A stretch of DNA of 64,000 nt from Tetraselmis striata (Eukaryota > Chlorophyta > Chlorodendrophyceae > Chlorodendrales > Chlorodendraceae), in assembly GCA_006384855.1 (NCBI GenBank), contig VCJN01003436.1, positions 39,276 through 103,275 of the forward strand, read 5' to 3'. Shown piece by piece: positions 36,178 through 60,479 of the stretch (positions are counted from its first letter, which is position 1; every line of letters starts with the position of its first letter). The notes below the pieces were generated by a model. The model was given only the letters and a program-made list of their open reading frames with translations. It searched no databases and had not been told where the DNA came from. Both the position numbers and the translations under genes were made by a program.

Positions 36178-36662
36178 TGTGACAGTTACACTGTATTGTA
36201 ACCTGTCATGCGCTATCTTTGGCATAATACAGTACGAGAGCCGGTACCACTGAATGATGTATATTCTACGGGTACTAGAGTACGAGTGCGCGCATGTCAC
36301 GCGCACGAGTACTCGTATATCGGCCTGCTGTATTATATATAATTATGTCTGCCTGTCTGTCAGATATGTTCTATTCTTGACAGTGCAGAGCATATATTAT
36401 GTATTGCCGTACAATGACGGGGCTGACGTTCTGCCTTCAGTCTGACTCTCCATGGTGACGCCCTTTGCAGTGGGCGTGCTGCTAGTGGTCGGCATGGCCT
36501 GATGGCCAATGCCGACGATAGCTAGATTATTTGTAGCAGCGGGTGGTGGCAACTTGTAACAATTATTGTATTCCAAAAACATTGTAGCCTCTCGCCTTTG
36601 CACCACCACTGCACACCCACCTTTGTTTGTCTTTGAGTCTCTATCCTGTTGAGACTGTCGCA
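36178..36662 (+). repeat. 5' LTR of the Ty3 element
   Basis: 485 bp, TGTGACAG...GACTGTCGCA. It is paired with 43051-43535. Confidence 0.93.
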
Positions 36663-36663
36663 C

Positions 36664-36677
36664 TGGTTTCGGAGCGA
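36664..36677 (+). promoter_or_regulatory. tRNA primer-binding site of the Ty3 element
   Basis: TGGTTTCGGAGCGA, one base after the 5' LTR. Confidence 0.85.
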
Positions 36678-36734
36678 GTGTTAGCTCCAGAATCTTCAAG
36701 TCTTCCACTGCAAGTACTCCTCGTTTGTTGTATA

Positions 36735-38483
36735 ATGAGTGACGTGATGAGGCGCAAGTTTTCGCGCGCACAACTGGCGGCTCGAGAGCGGGACGCAGAT
36801 ACTAAGCTACCTTTCGACTGCGGTGTCACGGCATCTGTGATTGTTACTTCAGGCACTGGAGCTGGTGCTGAGCGTGACATTATGATGACTATTGAACCGA
36901 ATCATAATAACACTGCTTTTCTGCCCTGTGGGACCTCGACACTTATCGACCTGTCAGTCCGCGAACTCGCAGTACGTATGCCGCAAACTGAAACCGGGAT
37001 CACGATGAATCCGGCTGACCTGAATCTGTTCGACTGTGTGACTATCAATGGAACCGACTGCTTTTTGTATGAGGCTCGAGTGAACTTTTATGAGCTGAAG
37101 AATGACACTCGTTGGCCTTACCGTGCTGAGCAGATGGTTAATGATAGTCTGATACCGTTTGTTGGACCTCAAGTAGCGGTCGACCCGCCAGCTGATAATG
37201 GTCCTCGTTTCCCTGATCGAATCACCATCGAGCCTGGCAATGATCGCCCGTCATATACTACCGAAATAGCTTCGCACCTGCGGGGTAAATGGTGTCGTGC
37301 CGTTCCCTATGTCGCAGCGCAAGTTATACACTCGGCAGTCGTCGATAAGTGGTCGAACGTGTATAAGGCCGTGTCGACTTCTGGTATATGGACCAACAAG
37401 AGCTACCCTGGCGTACCTGTTACTGTACCGTTTCGTTTTGGCTTCGACGAGTCACCTTTGTGGGAGGTCGTCAACGACCATATGGCTGTCGACATATCGA
37501 CTGAGTTCGACCGTTTGGAGGTATCGCGACCTGTACCGTGGTACGAAAAACCCGAGGCCAAGTTATCCGAGTCGCAGCGTAAGTCTGCACAGCAGCAACC
37601 TAAAGTCGACAACGACGACATCAATGCTCTCGACATCTGGCTTCATAGTATACCCGAAATGCTGGGCCAAGTAGAGTTAAAGTATGATACACCTGCAGGA
37701 CTTATGTATATCGTACATCAGCTGAAGGGGCGACTGCGGCGTTGGTGGCAGTCGTATGAAAACAAACCTGATACATAACGCCCCGCTACTGCTGCTGCGT
37801 TTGTTGCAGCCGTACGTAAATCGGCACAAATACCTGATCTTCAACGAGAGGCGTGCATCAAGTTTACTTCGTTAATACAGGTCAACGCAGGCGGTGAAGG
37901 AGCGCCCGCGACTTTTTCTGAATATGCACAGGAGTTCGACGATATTTTATCAAGATCTCGTCAGGAGCTGTCTAATGAGCTTAAATGTATTAAGTTCACA
38001 GAAGGACTCAGTCATCCCGAGTTAAGAAGGTTGGCACATCGTTTTCTAACTGAAGAGAAGCGCAAGTCTGTCAACATATCGATCGATATACTGGTAGACC
38101 ACTGTAATGGTCTCATCAGCGGTAATCGGTCTCTCGGCGAAAAGGCCAAGCCAAGAAACGGGCGGACTCCTGACAACAACGACTCGAGGACCGGAGCGGA
38201 CGACGGCTGCTCTGGCGAGGAGATTCGCAAGAAGCGTAAGCCCAAGGGCGGCAAGAGGCGTCGCGCCGAGGAGCAGTCGATCGTCAGGAACGGAGCCAAA
38301 AAGGGCAAGCCGACTCAGAAGGACGGCAAACCGCTTGCTGGCGAGGCGCTGCGGCGCAAGCAGGAGTACGACAGTATGGCCAAGAAGCTTGAAAAAGCTA
38401 AGGTCAGTGAACACTTCAACAACCGCACTTGTTTTAAATGCGGTAAGGAGGGCCATAAGTTCAGAAACTGTCCGGAAAAATAG
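36735..38483 (+). CDS. gag: Ty3 gag (capsid/nucleocapsid)
   Basis: The frame starts at ATG 36735 and runs 583 codons to TAG 38481-38483, with one internal TAA at 37776-37778. The N-terminal two thirds form the capsid region; the segment RQELSNELKCIKFTEGLSH near 37960 matches the conserved part of Ty3 capsid proteins. Before the end a lysine/arginine-rich stretch is followed by a CCHC zinc knuckle, CFKCGKEGHKFRNC, the usual nucleocapsid RNA-binding motif. A GT-AG interval at 37754-37809 around the TAA would throw the frame off, so an intron is not the explanation. A related but diverged gag lies at 61480-63053 on the other strand. Confidence 0.85.
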
Positions 38484-38490
38484 GGGTGCC
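38478..38490 (+). promoter_or_regulatory. Candidate gag-pol stop-codon readthrough site
   Basis: The sequence AAATAGGGGTGCC places a single TAG between the zinc knuckle and pol, with both genes in the same frame. The identical 13 bases occur at 63563-63575, right after the zinc knuckle of a diverged Ty3 fragment. Conservation of the stop and its 3' context across otherwise diverged copies suggests translational readthrough, as known for some retroviruses and retrotransposons. Confidence 0.55.
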
Positions 38491-41400
38491 TTGCAGCTAC
38501 TGGTAATGACAGACTAGTAGCTGGGGACTTAAATGATGAGCAGGCCTGTCCTGTAACAGATGACGTGGATGATGTACTTCCCTCTGTTCCTGAGTCTGAT
38601 GATGTACCGTCAGATTCTGCTCATGCCCCTGTAGATGCACCTACTGATACGTTTGTTGGTAGTAAAGCATCGGTTACAGATACGAAAAGCATACTCGTCA
38701 TAGCAGCTCGAAAATTGTCGGGTCGTCGTCGAGTAAAAGCTATTCGTCGTAAACGCATAAAGTCTACTCAAATACATACCAGTACGACTTGGCGTTTGCT
38801 TGATCGTATCTTTGAACCCCTCTATGATAAGTATAAGTTTACTTTAGAGGGATGTGCAGATTATGAGGGATTGAATACCCATAAAGATCTGCCCTTCTGT
38901 TCTGTCAATGAATCAGTTTTAGAACGGGACTTAGCTGGTGAACGAGTATATATACATCCACCATGGAACAGAGTAGAACAAATTGCTGCACACTTTGAAC
39001 AGTGTCGTAAAGCTAATCGTACTGATACTCTGGGTGTTTTTATACTACCAGCTTGGGATAGGTTTGATGCTATTACACAGCATTGGAAACTGGTCCAAGA
39101 GTTCCCGGCTAGAACGCCTATGTTTACCCGTTTATCACCAAATAATGCTACAGTCCATATTGATGTTCGCCCTGCGCCGTGGCCCATTCGTATATGGCTT
39201 GTGGACAATGAATGTAGTATACCTGATGATATTATGGATGAATCCTGCTCTCCTTATGTTAATGGGGAGGTGTCTCCGGACACTCAGGATTCTAACGTAG
39301 AGTCAGAAAATGTTGACCAAAATATTTTTAACTCTGAAATCGTTAATGTGTCGGCTGATAATGTTGATAATGTATCACAACCAGCTACTGTGGCTTCATT
39401 AAGTAAATGGGATGATCCCAGGCCACTATTAAAGGTTGAAATCAGCTTAAATACTGGTGCTCATGTAGATGCACTAGTAGATAATGCAGCATCATTGAAT
39501 TTTATTTCTGAGGACTTTGTCCGTAAAAATAATATTCAGATTGAGAAACTACAGAAGAAAATTCCGGTTCGTCTTGCTAATGGTCAACGTGCGAATTGTA
39601 CACAGATCGTTACCATTCCATTTGATATAGCAGGATACTCTTTTGAGAACCGAGTATTTTATGTTCTTCGAGAACTCAATGTGGCTGATGTTGTATTAGG
39701 ATTAACTTGGCTTGATGAAGCGCAAGTATCTGTACAATATGGGGAGAATCGTATCTTAACCCTAATTGATGGTACAGAAATCCCGTTTGAAACAATAGAA
39801 CGCCGACCCGCATGTAGCTCGATTTCTGCAATTAAAGTGATGAAATTAATGCGGAAAACGGCGAGGGGAGGGAAAGCAAAGCCCCGTGTGGCTGAGTTCT
39901 ATTCTGTCCAAATAAGTCTGATTAAGGATGACCCTAATCTGCATTTGGATTATGCGATGCTACCTGAGCATAAGGAGGCTGTTCGTAAAATTCTTTATGA
40001 TGAATTTCCGGAAGTGTTGCGACCGGTTGATAGTGATCCGCAGCATCGACCATGGGACCATAAGATTGATCTTACTGGTACTATGAAGAAACAACGTCTC
40101 AATCGGTTGTCCCCGGCTGAGCGTGCCGAGTTAGATCGCCAATCAAAATCAGCTATTGAGGCCGGACTTGTACGTCCTAGTCAATCTGAGTTTGGCTCGC
40201 CTATTCTTTTTGTTAGGAAGGCGGATGGATCTCTCCGGTTATGTGTAGACTTTCGTGGTCTCAATGATGTTACTCGGAAGGATGCGTATCCCTTACCGCG
40301 TATTGATGAAACTCTTGATGAGTTGAGGAAAGCTTGATGCTATACCCATTTAGATTTAGCCTCTGGTTATTGGCAGGTAGCTATAGCTGAGGAGGATATA
40401 CATAAAACTGCATTTCAGACACCTGATGGATTATTAGAGTGGACTGCTATGCCATTTGGGTTATGCAATGCCCCCGCAACTTTCCAACGTATGATGAATG
40501 ATATCTTACGTCCTTTTCTGCGTAAATTTGTGGTTGTGTATCTTGATGATATTTGTATATATTCAAAGAATTATGTTGACCACTTAGAACATATTCGTAT
40601 GGTAGTGGCAAAATTATCTGAACATAACCTACGTTTGCAACTAAAGAAATGTTTCTTTGGTATGACATCTATGGAGTATTTGGGTTATACTGTATCTGAT
40701 GGTAAACTGCAGATATCTGAGTCTAAAATATCTGCGATTAAAGATTGGCCCGTGCCAAAAACTCAGAGCGAAGTGCGAAGTTTTGTACAATTTTGCAATT
40801 TTTACTCCAAGTTTATACACCATTTCAGTGATTTAACCACTCCGTTAACCGATTTGTTACGTAAAACAAAACCAGCCGTTGTAGACTGGAGTCCTGACTG
40901 TCAAAAAGCTTTCGAGACTCTTCGTCTGCGTTTGATTTCCGCACCTTGTCTGACCATACCGGAAATAGGCATTGATGTGACGTTCACCGTAGCGACAGAT
41001 GCGTCCAACGTAGGGCTAGCTGCAGTTTTATTGCAGGACCAGGGAGGAGGCTCTCAACCAGTGGCATTCTGGGCGCGGAAGCTGAATTCAGCTGAGCATG
41101 GGAATACTTACTTTGCTTATGACCTAGAGGCATTGGCCGTCTGTGAGTCTATTAAGCATTGGAGGTGTTACCTTGAAGGTTGCCGTCGATTCCTTGTTGT
41201 TTCAGACCATGACACCCTACGGCATTTGCTCAGGCAACCTGCAGAACGGATGAATAGACGCCAAGCTCGCTATGTTCGCGACTTACAGTCCTATGTGGGT
41301 TCAATGTCTCTTGCATATAGAAAAGGCAAGTGGAATGAGGCAGATCCGTTGTCTCGTAGACCGGATTTTAAACCGTTAAGTTTCGGTGGCCTTTATTGGA

Positions 41401-43013
41401 CCAGGGATGTACCGGATACGGTTGAGGCACTTGAATGTGTACACAACCCACAATGTACTGCCATAGCTTCTATGAGTGTGAGTACTCTAAAGCTTAGTAA
41501 TGACATACTCGACATGATAAAAACGGGGTATGTGGCAGACGACTTCTATTCCGAATGGGGGGGGTGGATGAAGTCGGGACATGTGTCCAAACATGACGGG
41601 TTTTTTTGGAGGCATAAATGCCTATGCATCCCTAATAACCGTCAGCTCATTAACAAAATATTGTATGAGTTACATGATACTACTGGGCACCGGGCTGTTC
41701 AGAGTACCTTGGCACGTGCCTTGGACCGTTTTTGGTGGACGCGTATACGTCATGACGTGAAAGCCTATTGTGATAATTGTCCAACCTGTAGGCGGGTACG
41801 TTCTCGTCCGCAGCCGGCAGCACCGACGCAGCCGCTTCCAGTGCCGCCACGTCCATGGCACTCGGTTGGTTTGGATTTCATTACCGATTTACCTGTGAGT
41901 AATGGTTTTGATGCAATGTTGGTTGTTGTATGCCATCTAACCCGTCAAGCACATTTTATTCCGACGATTAAAACTGTGACTGGTGAATATTCAGCTGAAT
42001 TATTTCTGAGGGAAGTATACAAGCTGCATGGTTTACCAAGGGTTATAATTTCGGACCGAGATCCGAGATTTATGTCGTCTTTTTGGCAGACTTTGTGGCG
42101 TCGCCTAGGCACTAAGTTAAAAATGTCTAGTGGCCAACATCCTGAAACGGATGGTCTGACTGAAAGGATCAATGCCATTGTCTGTGAACTGGCTCGAGCG
42201 TTTTGTTGCTTTGATGGCACCAATTGGGTTGATCAATTGCCGTTGATAAAATTTTTGCATAATTCTAATCGTGCACTTGGTATTGAGCATACACCGTTTG
42301 AGGTTAATTACGGATTTAATCCTGAAACACCTCCTGACTTATTGTTTGCCATGAGGCCCACAATACCTGTGTCAGTCAGTGCTCAACAGAAAATCCAGAA
42401 TATGAAAGACATCCATGACTTAGTCAAATCGATTTTGGCAATTCATAAGGATGAGTTGACTGTTCGTCCTACGGAAAGGCAATAGAGGGATGTTCCCGTT
42501 TTCAATGTTGGAGATAAAGTGAGTATTGTAACTCGCTTTCTAAAAATCAAAGGCCAACCTAACCAGAAGTTAATGGATAGGCAGTTGGGACCTTTTCCGA
42601 TTATTGAGAAGATTGGCAATTATAGTTTCCGGTTGCAGTTGCCTCCGGGGATGAAGTTGCATCCGGTTTTTCATGTGAATAGTTTGCGGCCATGTCCGAC
42701 TGCACCTATTCGACCGGTTGTGCCATTGGTCACGGGCTCTGAGGAAGATCCTGAAAGCCAAGAGTATGAAATTGAAAAGATATCCGCAGTCAAGATTGGC
42801 TTGATGCCTGGCCGCAAAGGATCTCAATTGCAATTTCTTGTGCACTTTGCAGATAAAACTATTGCACCTGTTTGGCATCATTTGTTTGATGTAAAACGAA
42901 TTGTTGCTTTGCAAAGTTTTCTGGATACGCCGATGTGGCTGCAGTTTGCTGAGTCAGATGAGTTTCTGCAGCATGCGGCTAAATATCCGGCTAGAATTCC
43001 AACTGCAAATTGA
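38484..43013 (+). CDS. pol: Ty3 pol: methyltransferase-like domain, protease, reverse transcriptase, RNase H, integrase, chromodomain-like tail
   Basis: Domains in order: a domain at 38770-39220 with YIHPPWNRVEQ and LGVFILPAWDRF, resembling the Dam/N6-methyltransferase-like domain of tyrosine-recombinase retroelements; an aspartic protease (LNTGAHVDALVDNAASLNFIS, with DNA in place of the usual D-[ST]-G); reverse transcriptase with YLDDICIYS near 40545; RNase H starting FTVATDASNVGLAAVLL; integrase with an HHCC finger (TTGHRAVQ...CDNCPTC), the D-D-E core (GLDFITDL, ISDRDPRFMSSFW, HPETDGLTERINA) and a GPF module (RQLGPFPIIEKIG); and a chromodomain-like C-terminus (YEIEKISAVKIG...FLVHFADK). Stops TGA 40335-40337 and TAG 42483-42485 interrupt an otherwise continuous frame, so this copy is probably not functional. 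Confidence 0.88.
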
Positions 43014-43535: not shown

Positions 43536-45487
43536 GAGGAGCTGGTACCAAGCTTTGTCAGGCCAGTAGGGAACAATGACGATGGCTGGGGCACCGCTGG
43601 ACTCAAGTTTGGAGACTAGATCGCCGATGGGGTTCCACGGAGGGTTACACCAATTACGTTCGCAACGCCATGCAGCGTCGGAGAGGCGCAGGGCGTCGAC
43701 GGCCTCGCACCGCGGGTCACGCCAGCGGGCGTTGTAGCGGGGCTGGAGTGCGTTTTCAGAAGTCGCGAAGCGGTCGATGGTGCAGGCAGGCGCCCCATTT
43801 AGCAGTGAGCGAGGCGAATCGACGAGGGTTGAACTGCCAGTCGTCGCAATCAACCTCGCGACTAAGGCGGTCAGCCCAGATATTCGCTGCATAACGGATG
43901 TAGCGCACGGAAAGGGTGATGCCGTGCGTGTCCATGAGGTACCACGTTTTGCGTAGCTCAGCCATGAGGAGAGCGAGAGGTGAGGTTAGTGAGGACGCCG
44001 GCAACTGCTTGGTTATCCTCGTGCAAGCGGATGTGGCGGTTTTGGAGCATGGGGAGGAAGGACTCAATAGCCAAGCGGGCGGCTTTGAGCTCTTTCAGGG
44101 TAATGTGCGCATTGCGGTCATCGTCGTACCAAAAACCCCGAGCTTCATGGTGCTCGTTCAAAACGGCACCCCAGCCGTACGACGAACTGTCGACGTGTAG
44201 GTATCCGGTTTCGACGGGGCGGTTAATGGGACGGCCGTTGTGTAGGGTGGGCACACCCACCCACCATTGCAGATCGCGTTCGAGCTGGCGGGTAAGCTTG
44301 ACGCGGCCGGACCAAGAGTCGCGCGTCTTGAGCACATCATGCAGCTCACGAAGGTAGAAACGGGCAGGGGCAATGGTCAAGTAGAGAAACTGGCATTTGC
44401 CCGCGAGAGCGGCCAACTCGCGAGCTGGCAACCACCGACGGTCGCGTTTTGCTCGTTGGATTAGGCGTTTGGCCGCGCGAGCAATGCTGGCGAGTTTCTC
44501 AGCGGGCGCACGAAGACTAGGTGACCCCGATGTGTCAATTTTTAACCCCAGGTGCACGAGCTTCTGGGTGGGCTCCCACACGCCCTTGTTGGGGTTGCGC
44601 AGCAGACCAAAGCCCGAGAGGTGGCGTTCGATGTAGTCACGTTGCCAAATGGCCTCAGCCTGAGTCCGAGCTAGAAACAGGAAATCGTCCATGTAGGGCA
44701 ACATGCGCAGGCCAAATCGTCGCCGGGGAATAGGTGTGCCGTCTGCTTCAGCCGGGTTACGACGCAATGCCCTAGTGAGGACGTTGGTGAATTGGCAGAA
44801 GTAATAGGGGGACAGAGACCAGCCCATGGGAAGGCCAGCCAGTCGGTATAGAGTGCCGCGGTAATCGGCAGTGAAAAAATCCCTGTCCTCAGGGGCGATT
44901 CCAACCGCGTAAAACCCGTCCTGCAGGTCCATCTGCAACATGTAGTCCCCAGGGCGCGCCAGGTTGCGTAAATGCGAAAGCGTCTCAAACGAAAGATCGC
45001 GCGTCTCACAATAGCGGTTCAGGGGGCGAAGGTCAATGATGAACCTCCATTTGTTCGTTCCAGGGTTAGGAACCAGGAACAGCCGGGACACCCATTTTGC
45101 GTAGTAGCCTCGCTCCCAGGCCCCAACGGCCAGGAAGCGAGCCAATTCACCGTCCATAAACTCCAGTTGAGCAGGAGTAGCATCCCCCATTGACACCCCC
45201 TGATGAAAAGAAGGTGGGGCAAGCCCGTCCAAGAAAGGAACGCGTACACCTCGGGATATCCAGTTGAGAACACTGCGATTTGCGCCAGCGGCTTGCCAGT
45301 TGCCGAGATTACGACGGACGCGATGTCTCATAAAGGGGGAGTCGGGAGTACAGGAATTGGCGCGATGGATGTCGCGAGGGGGGCGAGCAGAGCGCCCTGT
45401 CGCTCTGCTGGCCCTCTCCGCGTCGGCGTCAGGGTCCACGGTGCGCGGCACAGTAGGAGTGCCGCGGCGTGGGAGTAACGTAGCCAT
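43536..45487 (-). pseudogene. Retroelement ORF: reverse transcriptase, RNase H, methyltransferase-like domain
   Basis: ATG at 45487. The reverse transcriptase shows KWRFIIDLRPLNRYCETRDL, LQMDLQDGFYAVGI (first catalytic aspartate), LPMGWSLSPYYFCQF and LPYMDDFLFLA (YMDD, near 44690). RNase H follows with YLHVDSSSYGWGAVL, ITLKELKA and HEDNQAV; its end (ADRLSRE) is in another frame after a shift near 43980. After a second shift near 43790 comes a domain reading CTIDRFATSENALQPRYN, NWCNPPWNPIGDLV and IVIVPYWPDKAWYQLL, the methyltransferase-like domain typical of DIRS/PAT/Ngaro-type elements. The Ty3 insertion cuts it, and the end is at 36177-36030. Gag is not recognisable upstream. Confidence 0.82.
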
Positions 45488-48864: not shown

Positions 48865-49348
48865 GGCGCTGTGAGCGGTGAAAGCGGGGGGGGGGGGGGG
48901 GGGGGGGGGGGGCGAGGTGGAGAAACTAACACCCAGTCGACGACCGCCTTCCGGGGCAGTCAACGACACAGCGGAGGTGAATGAGGAGCAGCGCGCCACT
49001 ACTATAGGTATGCACGTATTGTGAAGGGCTAGTCGGTGCGGCATTGTGTCGGGGTAATTTCGCAGTGTATATTGTTGAAGCAGCACGGCGTAATGAATAC
49101 GTGGTTTCACCGAGTGAATCCGGGATAATATAAGCGGTAGGGTGCGCGTGTATATGTGCGCGACGAATGTGCGCGGATATGCGCACCGGTGTGCAGCAGC
49201 GGTGTGCACCGATGTGCACGACATGTAGGGGCGGAACGGGTGAGTGTCCGCCGCTCCACCCAGCGCCGCAAATCCCCGTGCGTGGGCATCCCCCCCCCCC
49301 CCCCCCCCCCACAAGCCCCCCCCCCCCAATAAGCCTGAACCTGCCGCC
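48865..49348. other. Divergent intergenic region with G28 and C21 tracts
   Basis: It separates the start codons of the split gene (-) and the Ulp1-like gene (+). A G28 run (48885-48912) and a C21 run (49290-49310) lie close to the two starts. It probably contains both promoters. Confidence 0.45.
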
Positions 49349-50305
49349 ATGTCAAACAATATTAATTCCCCCGAGCTCCTCGCTGAGGAAGATGCGACGA
49401 CGAGGTTGCAAGCCTACCTCGAGCGGTGGCTACAGGATGCTGGTACCTATGACCCCGTACACCTGGAGCTGTGGAGGCTTCTCGGACAAGACGCCGCGCA
49501 TGCCTTGCTGAGAAAGTTCCCTAATGTGGTCCCGACGCCAGACCCGGATCTGAACGCTCCCGGGCTGCTAGAGGTGGGTTTGTTGTCGCACATCGCACAA
49601 GACTTGGTTGGGTTCAGCGAAGGCCGCGGCGGAGCGGAAGGGAGTACAAACGTCGTGGTTCTGAGCATGGTGTCCGGGAACGAGGCCTATCTGCGCAGGA
49701 AGTTGTTGGGAGAGGGCGATAGCATTGGGCAGTGGGAGATGGACGTGCGAGCACAGCAGGCAGCCTTCCGGCGGGCCCATTGCTTCCAGAACCCTCCCCC
49801 GGCGGCCCAGCCCTTATCGGACGTGCGCACCTTCGTGATTCCGGTCTGTTTCTCCGTCCACCTCACTGCCTTGGTGATGGACGCTGCGGAAACCGAGCCC
49901 CTAGTCTTCGACTCGATGGGTCACGAACCCAAGAAGCAGCACACGCGGATCATGTCCATGTTCCGTGAGTTCGTGACCCGGATGATGAAGTCGCATGATC
50001 CGGGGGTGCCTGCCGGCTTGTGCTGGGAGAACGTGACACACCTCCTGAGAGTAGCGGAGGCGGAGGCTCGCACTATCCCCGTGGCGGAGGAGCAGCTACA
50101 AAAATACATTTGGACCTGCGGGTGGCGGGTGCTGTTCTTCATCTACTGCTTGCTGAAGTTGAAGCCCGAGGACGAGCGTCGCGCTGCACTGTTGAGCGCG
50201 GGGACGTGCAAAGAATTCAGCACGAAAGCCCTGGAAAGCTTTATTTCGCAACAACGTTGTGCAGCAACGGAGTGCCCAGGACGGCGTCATCCATGCTCCT
50301 ACTGA
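49349..50305 (+). CDS. Ulp1/C48-like cysteine protease
   Basis: A 318-residue uninterrupted frame. Residues 160-260 carry the Ulp1-type catalytic pattern: FSVHLTALVMD with histidine 171, LVFDSMG with aspartate 188, and YIWTCGWRVLFF with cysteine 257 in a T-C-G context. C48 enzymes cleave ubiquitin-like proteins such as SUMO, and related proteases are often carried by large DNA transposons and viruses. The N-terminal 150 residues are unrelated to known domains. The start codon follows a C21 and a C13 run; the ATG at 49349 was preferred because the upstream in-frame sequence encodes only low-complexity proline. Host gene or transposon gene is open; the transposon-rich setting favours the latter. 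Confidence 0.6.
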   Translation: MSNNINSPELLAEEDATTRLQAYLERWLQDAGTYDPVHLELWRLLGQDAAHALLRKFPNVVPTPDPDLNAPGLLEVGLLSHIAQDLVGFSEGRGGAEGSTNVVVLSMVSGNEAYLRRKLLGEGDSIGQWEMDVRAQQAAFRRAHCFQNPPPAAQPLSDVRTFVIPVCFSVHLTALVMDAAETEPLVFDSMGHEPKKQHTRIMSMFREFVTRMMKSHDPGVPAGLCWENVTHLLRVAEAEARTIPVAEEQLQKYIWTCGWRVLFFIYCLLKLKPEDERRAALLSAGTCKEFSTKALESFISQQRCAATECPGRRHPCSY

Positions 50306-50690
50306 CACGGACATCGTCCCCATGGACTTGTGTGCGCGGGTGGGCACGCCCGAGGATGGCCTGCGACCGTTCACGCCATGGGCTGCAAGGCGCATTGCCC
50401 ATGTCCGCCCCCCGCCCCTCTTGGCATGCAGCACTTGGCAAGTAGCATGCAGCGCTGACACACAGTGGGGGGTGAGCACATGCGTGGGCCATGCAACCCC
50501 ACGAGTACCTGTTGTATCGTATGTGTGCGCGCGTGTGTCACGCGCCACAATACGAGTACTGGTGGATGATGAATCATGAGATGAGTCCTACTGGTACCGG
50601 TCCACTGTCCAGTAGTAGTTACGGGACCATACGCATGTGCGTACCCGTAGCGGGCAGAATTACACATATTCTATAATATAATAGAATATA
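50306..50690. other. Left flank of the 9.8-kb DNA transposon
   Basis: No gene is seen. The last bases are AT-rich (CTATAATATAATAGAATATA) and end with TATA, the probable target duplication. Confidence 0.45.
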
Positions 50691-50805
50691 GAGGAGTTCC
50701 ACAATAACGTGCCCGTGCAGAATTACGGTGTTAAGCATTCGTACCCGTATTTTCGCCGCGGAGAACCGCTCCGAAGCCCAGGGCTAGCGCACCGCGCCCG
50801 CGCAG
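50691..50805 (+). repeat. Left terminal inverted repeat
   Basis: About 115 bp, GAGGAGTTCCACAATAACGT onward, about 93% identical to the reverse complement of 60357-60471. Confidence 0.9.
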
Positions 50806-50891
50806 AATTGTTGACTCGGGCGCTCCCACATTCCTCAGACATCTTGTCGCCAGTCACCACACTGTCTGCTCCTACCTCTCATACCCACATC

Positions 50892-52942
50892 ATGTCGACG
50901 CAAAACACTCCGCTACCCACCCCGAAAGGTGCACGCGGGGAATACTGCGTGTGCAACCACCCGAGCTGTCGCAAACCGGTCACCAAGAATGCGCATGGCA
51001 TGGACACGCTCGCGCGTGACCCAGACCACTACCGGAAGGTCGTCGACATCCTCGTCTTCAATGACCCAACTTACCGCGACAAGGTGCTGAAGAACCCTAG
51101 GAGCTACAAGGTACACACCTCCCACTTCGGGGAGAGCGACAAAAGGGACATCAAGAGAAAAGGTGGCGCGGTGGGTAAGGCGTTGACGCCCGGTACAACC
51201 CCTCTGCCGTTCAAGGATGCAGTTGACCAAAACTGCGCGCGACAGGCAGCGCCGCGGCCGCCGCCCGTCAGCGCTGCTTACCCCGTGAGTCAGCGCCCTC
51301 TCTCCCGTGGAGCTGGCATGGCTGCCGCAGTAGGCTCCTTTGGTGTGCAACCGTCGACACCGGCAGGTCCGCGGGCAGCGTTTCAGTCATCGCTCAGGAG
51401 CATAAGCACAAACAGCCAGCAGCGAGCAGCTACGTCCTCTGTCCTCTCCAAAGCGAGGCCAAGGTCTCCGAGCATTAGGGAGCGAAAGAACACCCCCCCC
51501 CCTTACCTAGGCTGCCGCCTAGTGCCCCGGCTCGTTGGGGCTCGCCGCTGCCACGCGGCGGTTTAAAGGAGCCCATGCAGCAACCGCATGCTCCTCGCCC
51601 TCGGTCTGGTGCATCAAAGATGGACCCCCGGGTGGTTTCCCACATGCGATCGAGAATTAAGCTGTTGGAGGAACAATTGGCGGACAACAAGAATCTTTAC
51701 TCAACAGCAAGAATAGAGGCGGAGAGGCTGCGGGAGAAGCTACCTTGGGCAGGCGGCGAGGGAGAAGGAGGTGCTGATGGAGCAGCTTGAGCACGTGCAG
51801 GCGCAGCTTGGCGCTGCTCAGCACACATGTGGCAATGTGATAGCTAACCTGGCTAAGGAGCTGGAGAGGAAAAATGCGGAGATGGACGGCATGCTGAACG
51901 GACTGGTGGACCGGCTCACATGGGAGAATGTGATGAAGGTTCTGCCTGGAATGCTTGCATCAATCACATTGTTGGGTTTCCAACTGCCTAGTCTCTGCAG
52001 AAATTCTATGAATGGGTGAACTGCGAGGGAGTGGCGGACCGGCTGCGCTACTGGAACGGCAAGCCGAGCATGCAGCGCATGGAGGCGGAGGCTAATGGCA
52101 CTGCACAACGCGAGTCAGTCGGGAAACCGGAACAGCGGACCTTCACTACGCATAATGCTTTGTTGGTCACTCTGGTGAAGCTACGCACTGGGCTGGGGAC
52201 CCGCGTCATCAGTGCGTGGTCAGGAATCAAGATGTCGTGCCTCACCCGCATTTCCCCGACATGGATTTCTTACTTTGATCAGTTTTTCAAAGCGGAGTTC
52301 CCCGTCCCCAGCACGGCGGATATGTTGGACCGGGTGCATCCTGAGTGGAGGGAGGCGTACGGCGCGTTGGTCCGGCTTGTGCTGGACTGCACAGAGCTCA
52401 GACTCCAGCAGCCATGCAGCAGGAAAGCAGCTCGGACATGTTACTCTGATTACAAAACAGCCCACACAGCCAAGCTTTTGGCTGCAGTCCTCCCTGTGGG
52501 TGCCTATTGCGGTACCTCTCAAGCATATCCTGGCCGCATCTCAGACACAGACATATTACGCGTTTCCCACTGGCTGCATATCCTGCACAGGGGTGACTGC
52601 ATCCCAGCAGACAAGGGGTTTGGCCAGTAGTGCGAGGCGTTGGTTGTTGCGCGCGTTGCACGCATTGCTGCACCAGCGCGGCGTTGGCAGGGGCAGCGTC
52701 ACTACACAGCGGATGAGAGGTAGGGCAACGGAGAGAAGTCTAACCTGCGCATCCATGTAGAGCGGCATTTCAGCCGCTGGAGGGCCTTCTCTGGTAAGAA
52801 ACTGTCTCTATACTCTGTAGATATGATAGAGAAGGCCTTTAATGTCGTAGGACATTTGTGCAACCTGCAGCGCCCTCTTTGCAGCTCAGCATCCACTGGT
52901 GCGGTGGATGCAGAACAAGAGGCTGCAGAGGCAGACTTCTAA
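50892..52942 (+). pseudogene. THAP-like / DDE_Tnp_4 transposase
   Basis: ATG at 50892. The first 90 codons hold a Cys/His cluster, YCVCNHPSC...HYRKVVDILVFNDP...VHTSHFGES, resembling a THAP DNA-binding zinc finger with CCHH ligands. A coiled coil follows (RIKLLEEQLADNK, VLMEQLEHVQAQLGAAQ). The catalytic part (52016-52942) matches DDE_Tnp_4: LVTLVKLRTGLG, first aspartate in LVLDCTELRLQQP, TCYSDYKTAHTAKLLAAVLP, second aspartate in GRISDTDILRVSH, then PADKGFGQ and the glutamate in RIHVERHFSRWRAF (52760). A 62-base GT-AG intron (51939-52000) joins TWENVMK to KFYEWVNC in phase. Damage: a frame change near a C-run at 51493-51501, a one-base shift near 51745, and in-frame TAGs at 52628 and 52721. It ends TAA at 52940-52942. 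Confidence 0.82.
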
Positions 52943-54071
52943 TGTAATGCAATATTTTTCTGAACCGTCTCACACGTAAAATAATGTGGATGATGATTAC
53001 ATATCCCCCACCCTGTGGAAGGGTATGGGTGAGGGCCCCTGTCCCACCCCTGTCCCTGGCCTATGATGTGGCCTACCATATGTTGCTCCGCCATGCACTG
53101 CATGCACACAGCACAAGTACGTGTTTGCAGCCACAACATCAAGCTCACAGCCCACGCCACGCAACACTGGCTGCACATCGGTATCCGTTTAGGGCACGGT
53201 GCATCTCCTCCATAGCGCCTCCCTGGCAGCCACACGTGCTGCAGTGCTGCGGCCATGTTGAACGGCATCGCGGTCCGCGAGTGGCACATGGTTGAACTTG
53301 TAGCGCCACCCTGCATTGTCTGAAACGGGCAGCACCCGCCTCACCATCCCACTTGCGTCCCCGAGGCGCCGAGGAGTGAAGCTGGTGCGCATGAATGGAA
53401 TGGAAGGCGAGGGGGTGGTGACGTCGTAGGTGTCGCCGTTCCCAGGATTCAGCCATGCGCAGCGCAAAGAGGTGCAGGGTGGCTCACCCCATGGGCGCGG
53501 CAGGTTCAGAATGACCACCATAAGCATGAGCAAATGCACACAATCTGCACTTGATCTCAGAGGGCATGTGCAGCCACAACGCAGGAAGCGGGAAGTGAAA
53601 AGGCGCAAGCCTGGAAGTGCTGACACGCTGCATTCCACCCACACGTGGTAGGTTCTCCATACGCTGGCTGGCTGGGGCTGAAAACTTGAAGAAGACCGAC
53701 CTCTGACTCCCTCCATGCCGAGTGCGAGGCATGGTTGCGTTCTCATCGGGGTGAAACGCAAAGTGAGGCAGGTGCTGCATTTTCGCAACGCGGGAGAAGG
53801 CGTGGTCCAGGATTGTACGCGTACCACCATTCAGCATGTGTAATCTGTGCTCCCAGTGCGACAATAAAAGCGTCTGATCCACAGTGGGCGCATCGCGCCC
53901 AATCTGTTGAATGCCAGTCACCCAGCCCTATGTAGGCAGCAACTCTTCTCATTCGCCATCAGTAGCCTCAGCGAAATGTCATGCCTGATCAAGGTGACTG
54001 GACAGAATATGATCCTGGAGACTGCGGCCATGCGGGTCACGAAACAGCACCCGCTCTTCCTTATCCTGCAT
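52943..54071 (-). pseudogene. Downstream part of the SAP-like gene or unassigned frames
   Basis: Minus-strand frames (53921-53484 and 53830-53189) have protein-like composition, for example TYDVTTPSPSIPFMRTSFTP, but no recognisable domain, and they switch frame several times. They probably continue the gene whose SAP-like exon lies at 54072-54544. Confidence 0.35.
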
Positions 54072-54544
54072 TTATTTCTCCACCAATTGACGCTCCTTCA
54101 CCCGCCTCACCAGGTCGGAGCGAGATGCCCCAGAGAATACAGGCATTCCATGCCTGGTACGGCACCAGTGCCGCAGTTGTACAACGGTCGGGCGGAAGTC
54201 AGACGGCCACTCACCATGTTCATTTGGTAAAGGAAAAGGCTCCTGCAGCTCTGGGCCCAGGACCATATCTTCTGTGAGCTGCCATGCAATGGCTGGAGTG
54301 CGAATACTGCTCACATGAGGTAGCTCCTGAGGTGCCCCTGCAGAGCTGATGAGGCCCAATGCCCTGCCCTCCGCATCGCAATCATTGATGTTTCAGCCGA
54401 GGAAGGGCCCGCGCGTGATGGCCTCGTTGATTGGCATATGGTCGACAGTCTCCACTTCGCGCGTTTCGGGATTATACGCCAGCGCGTGCTGAAATACATC
54501 AAGGGCGTTAAGTGCAGTAGGTATCCATGCATCGGCATCAAAAT
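54072..54544 (-). pseudogene. SAP-like domain protein of the DNA transposon
   Basis: The exon starts after an acceptor (GTGCTGTGCAG) and reads WIPTALNALDVFQHALAYNP, then crosses TGA at 54393-54395, and continues to a region FRPTVVQLRHWCRTRHGMPV, FSGASRSDLVRRVKERQLVE. That last part fits the SAP motif pattern (T-x-x-x-L-x-x-W-x-x-x-x-x-G-...-S-G-x-[RK]-x-x-L-V-x-R-[VI]). SAP domains bind DNA or RNA and accompany nuclease-type partner proteins in some ISL2EU-like elements; that association is recalled, not checked. A TAA at 54072-54074 is followed by further coding-like sequence (DKEERVLFRDPHG). Confidence 0.45.
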
Positions 54545-55432
54545 CTGCACAGCACACAGCATGCAGAATAGTGATGCAGAATTGTTAAAAGTGCACCTGG
54601 CAAGAAAGAGAATAGAAAAAAATAGCACTCCACAATGTGAAGTCGGCACTGGAGTTACCATTTTGGGAGGGGGATGGGGGGGGGGGTTACCTCCCCGCAC
54701 AGCGTACGGCGCGCCACGCGCGACCCGATTTTTTATTACCTCGTATACCGTACAGCCGGCCGCGCAAAACACTGCCGCCGCGCAGCAACGTCGGCACTAC
54801 TCACCCGGGCATCAGCAGCCCACATAACCCTACCGCCCACCCGTCTCCCGGGCCATCTGAGGCAGCCACCACCCCGCCACGCCCACTCAGGGCCTCTAAA
54901 CGCCCGTTGACCGGCGGTCGTACGGTCGGAGGTGTCCCACTCAGGTGTGCCATCCCGCCTCCCCTGCGCGAATTGCCGTTGTTGTTGCGTCATCGCTCAC
55001 TCGGCATCCACTCTACCACTCACGCGAAAGCACAGGCCGTAGACATAGCACCCGCTCGGCGCATGTAAACGGTCCCAAACCGTTGGTATATGTGTTGTGC
55101 ATGGGCCCATGCGCGGTGCGGTGGTGTCGTGCCGTCTGTATCCTGCAGCAGCGCTTCGTCTGTCGGGGTGTTAACCGTGATTGTGCCGCATTGTTGCAGA
55201 TATGGGCAGCCGCGGCTCGTGCTGCCTCATTTGTCTACATTAGCAGCACGAGCAAGATGCACCGACCGACCCCACCGCGCCCTGCGTCCGCTGCGAGGGC
55301 ATCCTGAGGCCACCCGTGGCCCTTCTGGGCTACTACGACTTCACTGCTGCGAGTCGGTAGGCGCTCTTCGACGTCCTTGGGACAAAGAGCCGAGCCAACC
55401 CCAACTCACCCGGAGATGTTGAGGGCGCGTCG
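54545..55432. other. No complete gene seen
   Basis: Short frames only. The left part may contain upstream exons of the SAP-like gene on the minus strand, and the right part should contain the promoter of the plus-strand coiled-coil gene. Confidence 0.35.
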
Positions 55433-56590
55433 ATGGTGACGGTTTCCGTCAACTACCCTCTCCCGGTCTTGAAGCTGCAGCTGGCGCACGTGATGGAGAA
55501 GGTCCGGGCTGTCCAAGCCAAGCGTCTGGCGGACTTGGGGCGTGGGGCAGCGAAGTTGTTCAATCAGGAGCATTGTCGCGTGATGTGGTGCAAGATGGCG
55601 GAAAAGTATAGCTGGACTTTCCACACTTGGGACTTCCTCCGCTTCTTCCTGGACTTCCATGGCAACGACAACGTCCCTGACGGCGAGCGTGCGTTTGAGA
55701 ACGCCCGTCAGAAGGCAACGGGCGACCTGCACCTCATTGGCCTGCCCATGACACTCACTCTGGAGATCATTAAGGTGGGGAGCAAAGAGACGTATGGTGC
55801 CATCCACAAGCTTTCGTTCCGGTTCAGTACATTTGCCATCACAGCCGCTCAGGATGAGGATGGCCATGTCAACCTGCGGATGTCGGCCATGCATCCGTCT
55901 GACCTGACAGATGCTGGCATCGACAAGAGTAGGTGGCCCCACAAGCCGTTATACCGGAAGTACGCCGCGTATAACGAGCTGGGCGCACGGCGCCTGCTGC
56001 GGCGCAACCGGCGCCACATGCTGCCCGGAACCAGCCGGGACGTGCTGCTGGAGGGCAGCAAGCATTGGGGCAGCACGGCAGCCATCGCGTCCATCGGCTA
56101 CTACCCGGAGCGGTTGGCACCTGCTGGAGCGCCGGCTGGCACTGAGCCGTTCATGCATCACAAGCTGAACCGGGCCAACTGCGGGTACAAAGGGCGCATC
56201 ATCCTGCTGCATGAGGAGCGGGCGAGGGATAAGTTCCTGCAGGAGCTAGAGGCGGCGAAGCGGGAGCGGGACGACCTCATCTACAAGAAGGAGATGGAGC
56301 AGTTGTATCGGATGATGCGTGGGCCTGGACGGCGGGCGTGGGCAGCGAAGGAGCAGAACTACTACATGGACATGGACCGGCGGCTGAACGGAGAGGACTT
56401 CGCTGCAGGTAGGAAGCACGCGCTGCGCGGTGTAGAGGAGGTAGAGCTTTAGGTTACCTCAGAGAGGGAATGGGTACAGTGGTGTCACAGCACGTATCCC
56501 AAGCGTGCGGTTGATGAGATGAAAGAAAAGATTAAGTAGCTGAGTCAGAAAGTGGAACGGATGGAGAGGAGAGAGTATAATTACATGTAA
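55433..56590 (+). CDS. Unrecognised transposon-borne protein with C-terminal coiled coil
   Basis: An open frame of 339 codons ends at TAG 56450, but the same frame goes on with VTSEREWVQWCHSTYPKRAV, a second TAG (56537) and LSQKVERMERREYNYM before TAA at 56588-56590. The C-terminal third is highly charged and heptad-like (DKFLQELEAAKRERDDLIYK); a lysine-to-glutamine-rich coiled coil would continue smoothly if each TAG were once CAG. The N-terminal part has no recognisable domain. It sits back to back (tail to tail) with the minus-strand transposase-like gene, about 30 bp apart. Role unknown; in this setting it may be a structural or DNA-binding partner of the transposase. Confidence 0.5.
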
Positions 56591-56621
56591 TTATTCTTGT
56601 TTGGATTGTGCGCTGTTCCAT

Positions 56622-59286
56622 CTACTTTTGTCGCTTGTCCAGACCAAGCGCCTTCACCGCTGCATGATGTTGCTGCACCCTCAGCTTGCTCTTGTGTTCC
56701 CTGGTGAACTTGGTGGGCTGCACACCGGATGCTGCTTGCTTGGCTGCCTTCTTCACCGGTGCACGCGCACGCATGGCTGCCCCCTTCTTGGTGATGACGC
56801 GGGTGCGGGCAGAGAGGGCGCGCATGTGGATGGCATGGGTGATGGTCTTGGCCGCATGCTCCTTCTGGTTGTTGCAGCGGTGGCGCCCGAAGAAGTGCAC
56901 GCACTGGTGCATAGCCTCTAGCCCCTGACTGCACCACTTGCCCAGGCTGCCATGCCGCCGGATATCTGCCCCAGATGCACCGCACTGACGTGGATGTACA
57001 CTGTGACATCCTGCTGGTTGGCCACATGCAGGAACGCCGTGAGCATCTTGTTGCCCACCTCCTCAACCTCGGTGGCGTGTTGCTGGATGGCGGCTTCGTC
57101 CTTGTCATCACAGCCGTGGGTGATTAGGTAATACAGCTTAAAGAACAGATCCCACACCTTCTTGACGTTGATGTTAAACTGCTCGTGCCGGCTGCGCCAC
57201 AGCGGGATGGCCTTCTGCACGATGGCCACGTAGTTATCCATCAGCACTTGGCATGTCTCATCGGGCCACGACTCAGCACGGAGATCAATCTTGGCCTTGC
57301 CTGTCGCAGACTGACCGGCCTTGTTGCTGGACAGCTTGACCTTTAGGTGCTCCTTGACCCACTTCACCAGCTCAAGCTGCTTGGCGGCGTCGCAATGCTT
57401 CGAGGCCGTGAACTTGAAGATCTGCCGCACCACCCTCAGCATGAGGTCCAGGATGTCCACGATGCAATCCAGGATGTGCGACAGCACGAAGTACGGCGGC
57501 CTCCCCCTGCACATGCCGTAGTGCAGCTGATGCAGCTGCTGTTGCCTGGACACGCTCATGCCCTCATCTGTCAGCTCCGCACTGCTGGCTGTGACTTCCC
57601 TGTCCTTGCATTTTGTGGAGGGGCACCGGCTGCCCATCACGGTTTGTGTGAGCTGCACCAGCTCCTCCATATCTCGCATGCTGATGCCTGCTGCCTCCTA
57701 CTGTTGCAATGTCATGGCTCGCTCCGCGTGGGACCCCACGATGCAGTAGATGCATGGGAAGAGGCTGCTGCATCCGCAGTGGCCCAGCAACCCACTCAAG
57801 ATCTTCATGTCACCCCCGGCCAACACCTTGATGTTGTAGTGCTTGCCATTGACATGGACACCCTCCCGTTGCAGCTGCTCCAGGTCATCGGGGATGTGGC
57901 TGGCGTGGAGCTGCAGGTCTGTCCAGCAGTCATCCATCAAAAAGAAGGTGAGCAAGACATGGTTGTTGACTGAATTCACCTTCTGAGACTTATCGTTCAG
58001 TGATGAATCATCGTAGATGCACTTTGCCACGCAGGATGTGCTATTGGTCCTGGGGTTTTTGAATAGACCAGTAGCATCGATGAGGTGCTGACACGGGATG
58101 GTTGAGCCGGGTGGTGGCAGCAGCCCCATGTTGTCCACAAACTCCAGCTTGTCCGTGTGTTCACCTTGCAGCACAGATTAGCCGAGTCCACCCTGAGCTT
58201 CTCCATGTGCTCTTGGATGCGAGACACGATCCGGTCGAGTCCAGGGATGCCAGCTGACTTTGTGCCGCAAGGCCATAGCAAAGGAGTCCAGCCAGTAGTC
58301 GACGTTGGGATCCATCCGGTTAGACAGCATCGTCTTCAACTGCTTCCATGCTCGGGTGGTGCTGCAGATGTCCGAGTAAATTTTTCCGGCATTCTCACGC
58401 CACTGCTGCTCCATCACTCGCTTGGCTGCCTCCTCGGTCTGCCTATCGTGGCCCATGTCGTCGAGTATGCTACGCAACATGTGTCGGTACTTGAAGAAGA
58501 GGGAACGTAGGACCCAACGAGGCATGTGGGTGTAGGAGCGGTGGGTCTTGCCGACGGGACTCGGGTTACAGGTGCCGACATATGCACCGCCTCCACTACT
58601 ACTCTCGTCACCCTCTACGCCTGCTGCTAGCTGCTCGCCCGTCCCGTTCTGCTTGTAGTACTCCTCCCACTTGCTGCCAAACATGTTTGTCAGCAAGTGC
58701 TCTAGGTCGTCTCGCTTCTTGCGGATGTAGGTGTCGATGCTGTCCTTGGCTACCTGGCTGCCCTTGCGCAGCTTGTAGTGTAGCCCAGTCGGCCGATTCC
58801 GCCGCACGGGCGGCTTCGGCTCGTCATCCGCGCTGCCCGGCTCCTCCTCCTCCCCGGAGCCCTCGCCGTCTGACTGCTGCCCGTCTGACTCGCCGTCAGC
58901 GTCACCGCGCTTCCGCTTGGTGACGTTGTACCGGTAGTGGTACAGCTTCTCTCTGGCGTCGTGGGCCGCGATGCGGCTTTGCAGCGCTGCCTCCTCGGCC
59001 TACACCAGCCGCGACCGCAGTTCCCTCTCCGCCTCGCGGTGTCTCTCCGCCGCAGCCCTCAGAGCCTCCCCCTCCTCGGTCAGCCGATTGATCTTCGCGG
59101 TCAACGCGTCGCGCTCTGACGCACTTGTCGCAGCTGCGTCGCTATGCGTGCCTGTCGCGTGTCCTGAGCCCGCCCGCGCGCCGCGGCCCGCTCACCGGCA
59201 TCCGCCACCCCCGCCGCCGCCGCAGCCGCCCGCCGCTGCTCCTCCCGCTTCCTAGACGCCTTCGCCCTCTTCCCCTTGTTCCCCAT
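56622..59286 (-). pseudogene. Transposase-like protein with D-x-K and C-x-x-C motifs
   Basis: It starts MGNKGKRAKASRKREEQRR at 59286 with a basic, alanine-rich then coiled-coil N-terminus (INRLTEEGEALRAAAERHRE), crosses TAG at 59000-59002, and continues through an acidic linker to RPTGLHYKLRKGSQVAKDS. The central part has LLTFFLMDDCWTDLQLHA and KVLAGGDMKILSGLLGHCG followed by FPCIYC, a pattern seen in several eukaryotic DDE transposase groups (aspartate, then a C-x-x-C insertion). After TAG at 57698 it continues RDMEELVQLTQTVMG and ends with LGKWCSQGLEAMHQCVHFFG, where E-A-M-H may be the catalytic glutamate. Frameshifts lie near 59110, 58240, 58180 and 56950. Assignment as a transposase is inference; the superfamily is uncertain. 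Confidence 0.5.
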
Positions 59287-59371
59287 GGTCCCGCACGTGC
59301 GTGCGGGGGGCGGTGGGTGGGTTATGGTGGCGTTCTTGGCATGTTACAGTGACATGCCGGCGGCGGGGTGC

Positions 59372-60277
59372 TTAAAAAGTACGGGAAATGCCGTTTCCGT
59401 ACGCTGTGCGCATGTTGAGGTGCTTTAGAGCTTCCCGCGCCATCAGAGTCACTGCTCCTCTGACATCTTGGAGCGCAGCAGCAGCATGCTACTTAACCAC
59501 ATCCTCCAAGAGTTCCGCGGCTTTCACCACACCGACACCCCTTATCTTGGTACCATAATCACACCCGTCCAGCAGCCCGAAGCACAACAGAGCAGGCAGC
59601 CCAACATCCTTCACGATGGGCAAAAGATGCTGCGGCGGCTAAAACTTGGATGGCAGTTCTGGCCGCCGGTCAGGATCCTGCAGCACCGCCTTGGAGTACA
59701 GAAGACAACGGCCTGACCTCAAGTTGACCTTAAAAAAAACCCATGGGCAAGCCGTGGATGATGAAGTCGCTGTCGATTGTGACTGCATCCCATATCTTTC
59801 CGTCGCGCGCGCAAGCAAAGACAGTTGCGCGTCTGCCTCCAAGGGCGCGACGATGTAGGGGATCCCCGCGCGGCGGAGCTGTGACAACACTGCCACGACA
59901 GCCGGCCATCCCAAGGAAAAAGCGGCGCGCAGCATCTTAGGGTCGGCTTCAGCGCCATCGTACTTAACTGCGGCATACGCTTTCGCACGCCTAACCTGAC
60001 GCGCGGAGTCTGTAGACCGCTTCGCGGGCGTGGGTGCTCCATCGAAGACAAACAAAAGGTCTACCCCTCGCCCGAGAACATACTGTGTTTGCTGCAGGAA
60101 GTGCTTGGCGAGCGGCTCGTAGTCCTTGTCCAAGACGATGGACTGCGCGTGGTGGTACCCCAACGGGTGCATCCAAACGTGACCGTCAATGCCTAAACGC
60201 CTCCCGCGGGCCAGTGCATACAAGTTGGTCTTCTCGCATATGGGGTCAACGAGGGTAAGGAGACCTGGGATGACCAT
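59372..60277 (-). pseudogene. XPG/FEN1-like structure-specific nuclease
   Basis: It starts MVIPGLLTLVDPICEKTNLY at 60277, the XPG N-region layout (M-G-I-x-G-L-x), with IDGHVWMHPLGYHHA and LLFVFDGAPTPAKR carrying expected acidic residues. The internal region has GIPYIVAPLEADAQLSLLA; the catalytic TIDSDFIIHGLPMG is present but in another frame between two compensating one-base shifts near 59800 and 59745. After TAG at 59639 the first frame continues LLCFGLLDGCDYGTKIRGVG and VKAAELLEDVV, the helix-two-turn-helix DNA-binding module of the family; a second TAG (59489) is followed by about 38 more codons to TAA at 59372. Enzymes of this family cut flaps and branched DNA. XPG-type nucleases are known from some DNA transposons (an Academ lineage is recalled), so a role in excision or repair is plausible. 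Confidence 0.8.
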
Positions 60278-60356
60278 CTCGTGCGTGGCCAACACGGAGC
60301 GGTCAGGTGCGGATAGGGTTGGAATGACGATGTGCCGACGGTGGTCAGCAATGCAA

Positions 60357-60471
60357 CTGCGCGGGCGCGGTGCGCTGGCCCTGGGCTACGGAGCGGTTCT
60401 CCGTAGCGAAAATACGGGTACGAATGCTTAACACCGTAATTCTGTACGGGCACCTTATTTTGGAACTCCTC
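60357..60471 (-). repeat. Right terminal inverted repeat
   Basis: The reverse complement of the left repeat at 50691-50805; the outer end is GGAACTCCTC followed by TATA. Confidence 0.9.
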
Positions 60472-60479
60472 TATATTCC

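Follow-up and report, generated by a model that had tools for sequence, protein, structure and literature searches.

A DDE_Tnp_4 transposon with an XPG-family nuclease gene in the green alga Tetraselmis striata, interrupted by a second transposon

A stretch of 64,000 nucleotides from Tetraselmis striata (assembly GCA_006384855.1, contig VCJN01003436.1, positions 39,276 to 103,275 of the forward strand), here called the window, contains one transposon inside another. The outer element encodes a DDE_Tnp_4 transposase and an XPG-family nuclease, and the inner element lies within the nuclease gene. The features, in window coordinates, are as follows.

50688..50689, no strand: left AT target duplication of the outer element (flanks read by eye and one empty site)
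50690..60472, plus strand: outer transposon in its interrupted state, about 5.1 kb without the insert (122-nt arms, uninterrupted copies and flank reading)
50690..50805, plus strand: left terminal inverted repeat of the outer element, starting AGAGGAGTTCCACAATAA
50892..52942, plus strand: outer transposase gene, with an N-terminal C4C..HxxH region, a coiled coil, HTH_Tnp_4 below cut-off and DDE_Tnp_4 (start and stop checked)
53145..54544, minus strand: nuclease exon 2, the SAP-like and SWIM-like part, with acceptor TGTGCAG/ATTTTG; frameshifted, its window pieces lying in several frames
53534..53578, minus strand: SWIM-like CxCx7CxH in exon 2
54075..54191, minus strand: SAP-like stretch in exon 2
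54691..54697, minus strand: final 7 bases of nuclease exon 1, detached by the insertion and adjoining the donor GTAACC
54696..54697, no strand: left CG target duplication of the inner element
54698..59408, no strand: inner transposon, 4,711 bp, with ends CACAGCGTACGG and CCGTACGCTGTG (copies elsewhere and absence from outer copies)
55202..56590, plus strand: second inner gene, about 461 amino acids, with premature stops in the window, one of them at 56,450-56,452
56622..59286, minus strand: inner transposase gene, 892 amino acids where the frame is open; the window copy is broken (5 stops in the match)
59409..59410, no strand: right CG target duplication of the inner element
59411..60277, minus strand: most of exon 1 of the XPG-family nuclease gene, with XPG_N, XPG_I and the helix-two-turn-helix GCDYG; cut by the insertion and frameshifted
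60357..60472, minus strand: right terminal inverted repeat of the outer element, pairing with the left repeat
60473..60474, no strand: right AT target duplication of the outer element (same basis as the left AT)

The outer element is bounded by inverted arms of 122 nt that are 94% complementary, and its terminal repeats start AG. The original prediction, made from the window sequence, had described such repeats and a TATA flank. Both are there, with AT/TATA flanks at the ends, and its limits of 50,691 and 60,471 needed correction to 50,690 and 60,472. When the genome (224 Mb in 2,903 contigs) was queried with the left-end DNA, many matches paired into elements of 4.3 to 5.6 kb (best 40 of 408 candidates scored). 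Twelve of these places were fetched. Nine (L009-L017) cover the internal site described below, L018 is a 0.8-kb deletion derivative, and L019 and L020 are partial. AT flanked both sides in 10 of the 11 two-ended copies (the window and L009-L018, flanks read by eye), the exception being L009, which has GT on the right. For the copy on contig C2226, the joined flanks matched one genomic place over 148/148 bases at 98% identity; the match has the length expected of an empty site with a single AT, a judgement made by length. A genome query with the joined flanks of the copy on C1116 gave no empty site. The target duplication of the outer element is AT.

The segment from 54,698 to 59,408 was missing from all nine fetched outer copies that span the site. 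In their alignment, window positions 54,686-54,698 join directly to 59,409 in 9/9. The uninterrupted site reads CCCCGCCTGTTGAGG in seven of them, with L009 two bases off and L015 one base off. The window junctions read CCCCG, then the 4,711 bp, then CGCATGTTGAGG, and comparison with the uninterrupted site therefore shows that the insert duplicated CG. Both ends of the segment are abundant elsewhere in the genome by DNA search. It was matched at 20/20 fetched places, all of them other sites, in a single alignment of 4,707-4,710 bases at 94.6-96.2% in 18 and in pieces in 2. The flanking duplication, read by eye, was an exact 2 bp in 15 of these copies, an exact 3 bp in 2, and neither in 3. Therefore, 54,698-59,408 is an independent transposon nested in the outer element. 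It sits inside exon 1 of the nuclease gene, 7 bp before the splice donor, and severs the gene. Just inside the repeat, the left ends of the inner copies (L045-L064) take one of two forms, GGCGCGCC or GGAACCCC-like, and the window copy has the first.

The transposase frame of the outer element is broken in the window by stops and frameshifts. Even so, a window piece matched DDE_Tnp_4 (PF13359) at E 1e-15, and the open 753-codon frame of copy L012 matched it at E 1.8e-25 (89.9 bits, cut-off 24.8), which bears out the transposase type first proposed. HTH_Tnp_4 stayed below its cut-off of 27 (E 0.00027, 20.9 bits). The proposed THAP domain gained no profile support. Neither Pfam nor PDB supported THAP in this protein, and a genome-wide THAP profile search had no match anywhere, its controls being equally silent. 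The C4C..HxxH pattern at the N terminus is present in the window and in 8 of 9 fetched copies. From the motifs that we associate with DDE_Tnp_4, we take GDCIPADKGF to be a likelier site of the second catalytic aspartate than GRISDTD.

On the opposite strand, the XPG-like gene of the original prediction is also real. Its exon 1 in the window matched XPG_N (E 1.6e-8) and, partially, XPG_I (E 0.0006), and an intact outer copy passed both cut-offs (E 8.3e-10 and 1.2e-11). In the PDB, it matched Exonuclease 1 (E 3.5e-18). The acidic motifs IDG, VFDG, EAD and DSD, which are presumably catalytic, were all found together with GCDY in the relative P0010 and, by eye, in the L010 frame. The protein thus has the N and I regions, the acidic motifs and the GCDY helix-two-turn-helix of the XPG/FEN family.

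The neighbouring SAP-like protein was first taken for a separate gene. The SAP-like stretch remains, and the separate gene does not. A predicted splice, GGGGAG/GTAAC...TGTGCAG/ATTTTG, has its acceptor in 9/9 copies and its GT donor in 8/9. P0001, a 697-amino-acid protein from an MMETSP transcript, crosses this splice (LNRRG-DFDADAW) and matches L010 exon 2 at 100% identity over 98%. What had been read as two genes, XPG and SAP-like, therefore forms the exons of a single spliced gene. Gene models of a second family (P0008 and P0009) likewise join XPG to the SWIM-like part, with 47-48% identity to exon 2 over 31%, and five more exon 2 relatives in ENA records are 40-51% identical. The C, C, C and H ligands of the SWIM-like motif are invariant in 7/7 aligned sequences. 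A scan of viral contigs with the exon 2 alignment found no relative. In all, the profile searches that had been suggested for this locus matched DDE_Tnp_4, XPG_N and XPG_I; SAP fell below cut-off and THAP gave nothing.

The inner element also has two convergent genes. Its transposase frame is open in several copies, as is a 469-codon frame for the second gene, which matched no Pfam or NCBIfam family and is not identified as RAG2. A protein database search with the transposase core returned three proteins, all with JGI names under Tetstr1, the code for Tetraselmis striata (7,990 candidates scored). Divergent families, about 50-68% alike, occur in the same genome (contigs C1432, C1497, C54, C470, C2053, C1240, C536 and C2885). 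Of the weak inner-end matches L067, L068 and L069, two resemble the transposase in its N-terminal part alone, and one matches nothing. No relative of the transposase appeared in a scan of viral contigs. Its structure, which had been suggested as a check on the protein at 56.6-59.3 kb, was modelled at a mean predicted local distance difference test (pLDDT) score of 35.8 and was unusable.

No Pfam transposase family matched the inner element. The whole transposase matched Pfam RAG1 below cut-off (E 0.0013), along with a second family at chance level. With the C-terminal parts of this protein and of a family about 61% alike, RAG1 was the sole Pfam match, again below cut-off (E 0.00033 and 0.011). 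The PDB RAG1 comparison gave E 0.006 for the first and E 0.11 for the second. In the alignment, GLE of the inner protein stands opposite RAG1 GNE, which we take to hold the catalytic E962. The ends, CACAGCG, are close to what we take to be the recombination signal sequence heptamer, CACAGTG. CAC ends and 2-3 bp duplications, which the inner element has, are also features of CACTA/EnSpm transposons. A true Transib/RAG-like transposon, for which the sole Pfam match, the GLE alignment, the CACAG ends, the weak RAG1 C-terminal similarity and the two convergent genes all speak, is nevertheless unlikely. A profile built from the two families reached RAG1 at E 0.36 only, so the link is weak, and no RAG2 was identified. 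Furthermore, the duplications left by Transib and RAG-like elements are 5 bp long according to the excerpted text of PMC7204232, whereas the inner element made 2 bp in 15/20 copies and sometimes 3. Because its duplication is mostly 2 bp rather than 5, we do not file it under Transib/RAG-like. An excerpt of PMC9435367 does describe a RAG-like transposon in a microalga, Aureococcus. The inner element is probably RAG1-like or CACTA-like, and we rate the CACTA type as equally possible.

In the outer element, the transposase (plus strand) and the nuclease (minus strand) are convergent. We searched the genome at the protein level with P0008, which gave 114 matches (107 of 121 candidates scored), and with the outer transposase, which gave 66 (best 60 of 138 candidates scored). 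A script compared the positions of 57/66 transposase rows and 79/114 XPG/SWIM rows; the rows left out were on contigs already included, and nine were translated terminal repeats. Among the scored matches, 19/19 transposase contigs outside the window family had an XPG/SWIM partner on the convergent strand, within 1,017 bp in 16 and at 5.1, 6.7 and 10.9 kb in three. The transposases on these contigs were about 34 to 65% identical to that of the window family. The pairing of DDE_Tnp_4 with XPG/SWIM is therefore old, and the same pair occurs in divergent families of this genome.

This pattern bears on whether the XPG-SAP-SWIM gene began as a fragment of a host repair gene, captured once and without a role in transposition. 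XPG proteins belong to the normal repair machinery of host cells, and 26 of 45 XPG/SWIM contigs outside the window family had no transposase match; these 26 likely include host XPG genes and broken copies, and may include contigs whose transposase candidates went unscored. A single capture fits poorly with a partner in every one of the 19 contigs, 16 of them convergent within about 1 kb, and with frames that are still open in several divergent XPG/SWIM matches. We consider it improbable.

The closest known transposons appear to be ISL2EU elements. As described in excerpts of PMC4482050, these have AT duplications, mostly a DDE/HTH/THAP transposase, a second gene with YqaJ and repeats that usually begin GG, and the excerpted list places them in animals only. 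The outer element resembles them in having two genes, a DDE transposase, an AT duplication, a length of about 5 kb and a second gene with a nuclease domain (PMC4482050 and PMC9179366, both as excerpted). It differs, going by the same descriptions, in several respects. It has XPG where ISL2EU has YqaJ; its repeats begin AG rather than GG; its target is T/AT/A-like rather than A/AT/T; profiles detect no THAP in its transposase; and it is in a green alga, whereas ISL2EU was described from animals. Since it shares the AT duplication and DDE transposase but lacks YqaJ and GG, while its C4C..HxxH pattern and sub-threshold HTH_Tnp_4 match decide neither way on THAP and HTH, we call it ISL2EU-like and do not file it as ISL2EU.

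Might it still be an ordinary ISL2EU element whose YqaJ was overlooked or is supplied in trans? Its AT duplication, DDE_Tnp_4 transposase and length fit the excerpted description (PMC4482050). However, YqaJ had no match in the outer-element proteins and had two matches genome-wide at E 0.001 or better, both at other loci (L065 and L066). At these 3.4-kb loci, frames of at least 150 codons showed no SAP/SWIM-like protein by eye. With the AG repeats and the lack of THAP by profile, this makes an ordinary ISL2EU element slightly less probable still than a captured host fragment.

The two YqaJ loci (L065, C2605:161037-161417, E 2.4e-17; L066, C613:237838-238221, E 2.7e-17) each have an adjoining convergent second frame, and these frames are similar to each other by eye. 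Both loci gave the impression of integrated giant-virus DNA.

Taking these results together, we read the locus as a two-gene outer transposon, with a DDE_Tnp_4 transposase and a spliced XPG-SAP-SWIM nuclease that likely processes DNA ends during transposition, interrupted in the nuclease gene by a separate, probably RAG1- or CACTA-like element. We put the probability of this reading at roughly 0.8. All four genes in the window are broken, and the window copy is therefore dead. That a single new 9.8-kb transposon carries all five genes, one of two readings in the original prediction, can be dismissed, since the one outer repeat pair that encloses everything in the window encloses no middle segment in the 9/9 uninterrupted copies and that segment, which has its own ends, empty sites and 2-bp duplication, stands as a separate element at 20/20 fetched places. 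The same prediction had allowed for nesting as its other choice, and nesting is what was found. It had also proposed looking for a second set of ends and a target duplication around 54.5-59.4 kb, which exist, and for same-ended copies without the XPG and second transposase genes; the copies lack the second transposase and keep XPG. What was called an unusual combination survives as DDE_Tnp_4 and XPG with SAP/SWIM-like parts within one repeat pair, minus the second transposase.

Several points weigh against the reading that we prefer. Pfam placed SAP on exon 2 below cut-off (E 0.034, in one of four relatives tried) and SWIM likewise (E 0.13), and a genome-wide SWIM profile search placed 0/45 rows in these nuclease genes. 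A structure model of the XPG-SAP-SWIM protein was unusable (mean pLDDT 40.7). Because the transposase search scored the best 60 of 138 candidates, the count of 19/19 holds for the best matches. These contigs are also partly non-independent: C1199 equals C2170 in its values, and a single family accounts for C2683, C1259 and C2011. The pairing in divergent families was read from gene positions, and the 26 XPG/SWIM contigs with no transposase match count here as well. The proposed replacement of YqaJ is drawn from published ISL2EU descriptions, and the part that the XPG nuclease would play in transposition is inferred.

We envisage that the outer transposase would cut at the terminal repeats and insert the element at AT within TATA-like sites. 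The SAP/SWIM-like parts might hold the XPG protein on DNA, where it could attack the excised ends, or the break at the donor site, with a 5' flap or 5'-to-3' nuclease activity. Such action might favour homology-directed repair and thereby a gain in copies. The same role could be assigned to the YqaJ of ISL2EU, so that unrelated nucleases would occupy one slot.

Transposases of the PHIS (PIF/Harbinger-ISL2EU-Spy) group are of the DDE_Tnp_4 Pfam type, as is that of the outer element, and ISL2EU accessory proteins may also carry SAP/SWIM-like parts before YqaJ. Since its ISL2EU relatives have YqaJ in that place, we regard the outer element as a new nuclease variant of the PHIS group. Academ transposons also have an XPG nuclease, with their own transposase and 3-4 bp duplications. 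The outer element, with DDE_Tnp_4 and a 2-bp duplication, is not one of them. A precedent for the exchange of accessory nucleases comes from KolobokE, KolobokD and KolobokP, in which, as excerpted from PMC9587614, one transposase superfamily is accompanied by varied nucleases (lambda-exonuclease-like, DEDDh and His-Me), that of KolobokP lying on the complementary strand. Kolobok has a different transposase superfamily, and that excerpt names no XPG among its nucleases (PMC9587614). In the open-licence literature, we found no description of XPG with ISL2EU, Harbinger or terminal-inverted-repeat transposases and none that links YqaJ with SWIM and SAP in a transposon, and among open-licence titles on Tetraselmis striata transposable elements there was no account of this element.

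These results touch on why some transposons that move by cut and paste bring along a repair-type nuclease. A DDE_Tnp_4 lineage in which XPG recurs, with animal relatives described as having YqaJ, suggests that the slot selects an activity and not one protein and allows the two to be compared directly, and the spliced SAP/SWIM-like fusion across many families of one genome makes the question testable. The inner element, for its part, adds a green-algal family that is deep, weakly similar to RAG1 and marked by 2-bp duplications. A bolder proposal is that an algal ISL2EU-like lineage, with many families in this one genome, swapped YqaJ for an unrelated XPG/EXO1-type nuclease in a slot devoted to 5'-end processing that turns breaks into new copies, and that in the window it was interrupted by a RAG1-related transposon with heptamer-like ends and a 2-bp rather than 5-bp duplication. 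We offer this tentatively, as having a little less than an even chance of being right.

An Rfam scan of the window gave no match. Beside the left end of the outer element, a 60-bp stretch at 50600-50662 recurs at 90-92% in at least 17 other genomic places and probably represents one end of a different repeat family. Just outside the left end of the outer element, a 353-codon frame at 49244-50305 gave the impression of a Ulp1-type cysteine peptidase. Elsewhere, long frames at 22674-26782, 36627-42485 and 43958-45487 resemble, by the same kind of impression, pieces of reverse transcriptase and of Ty3/gypsy-type polyproteins, and the window appears to be rich in retroelements.

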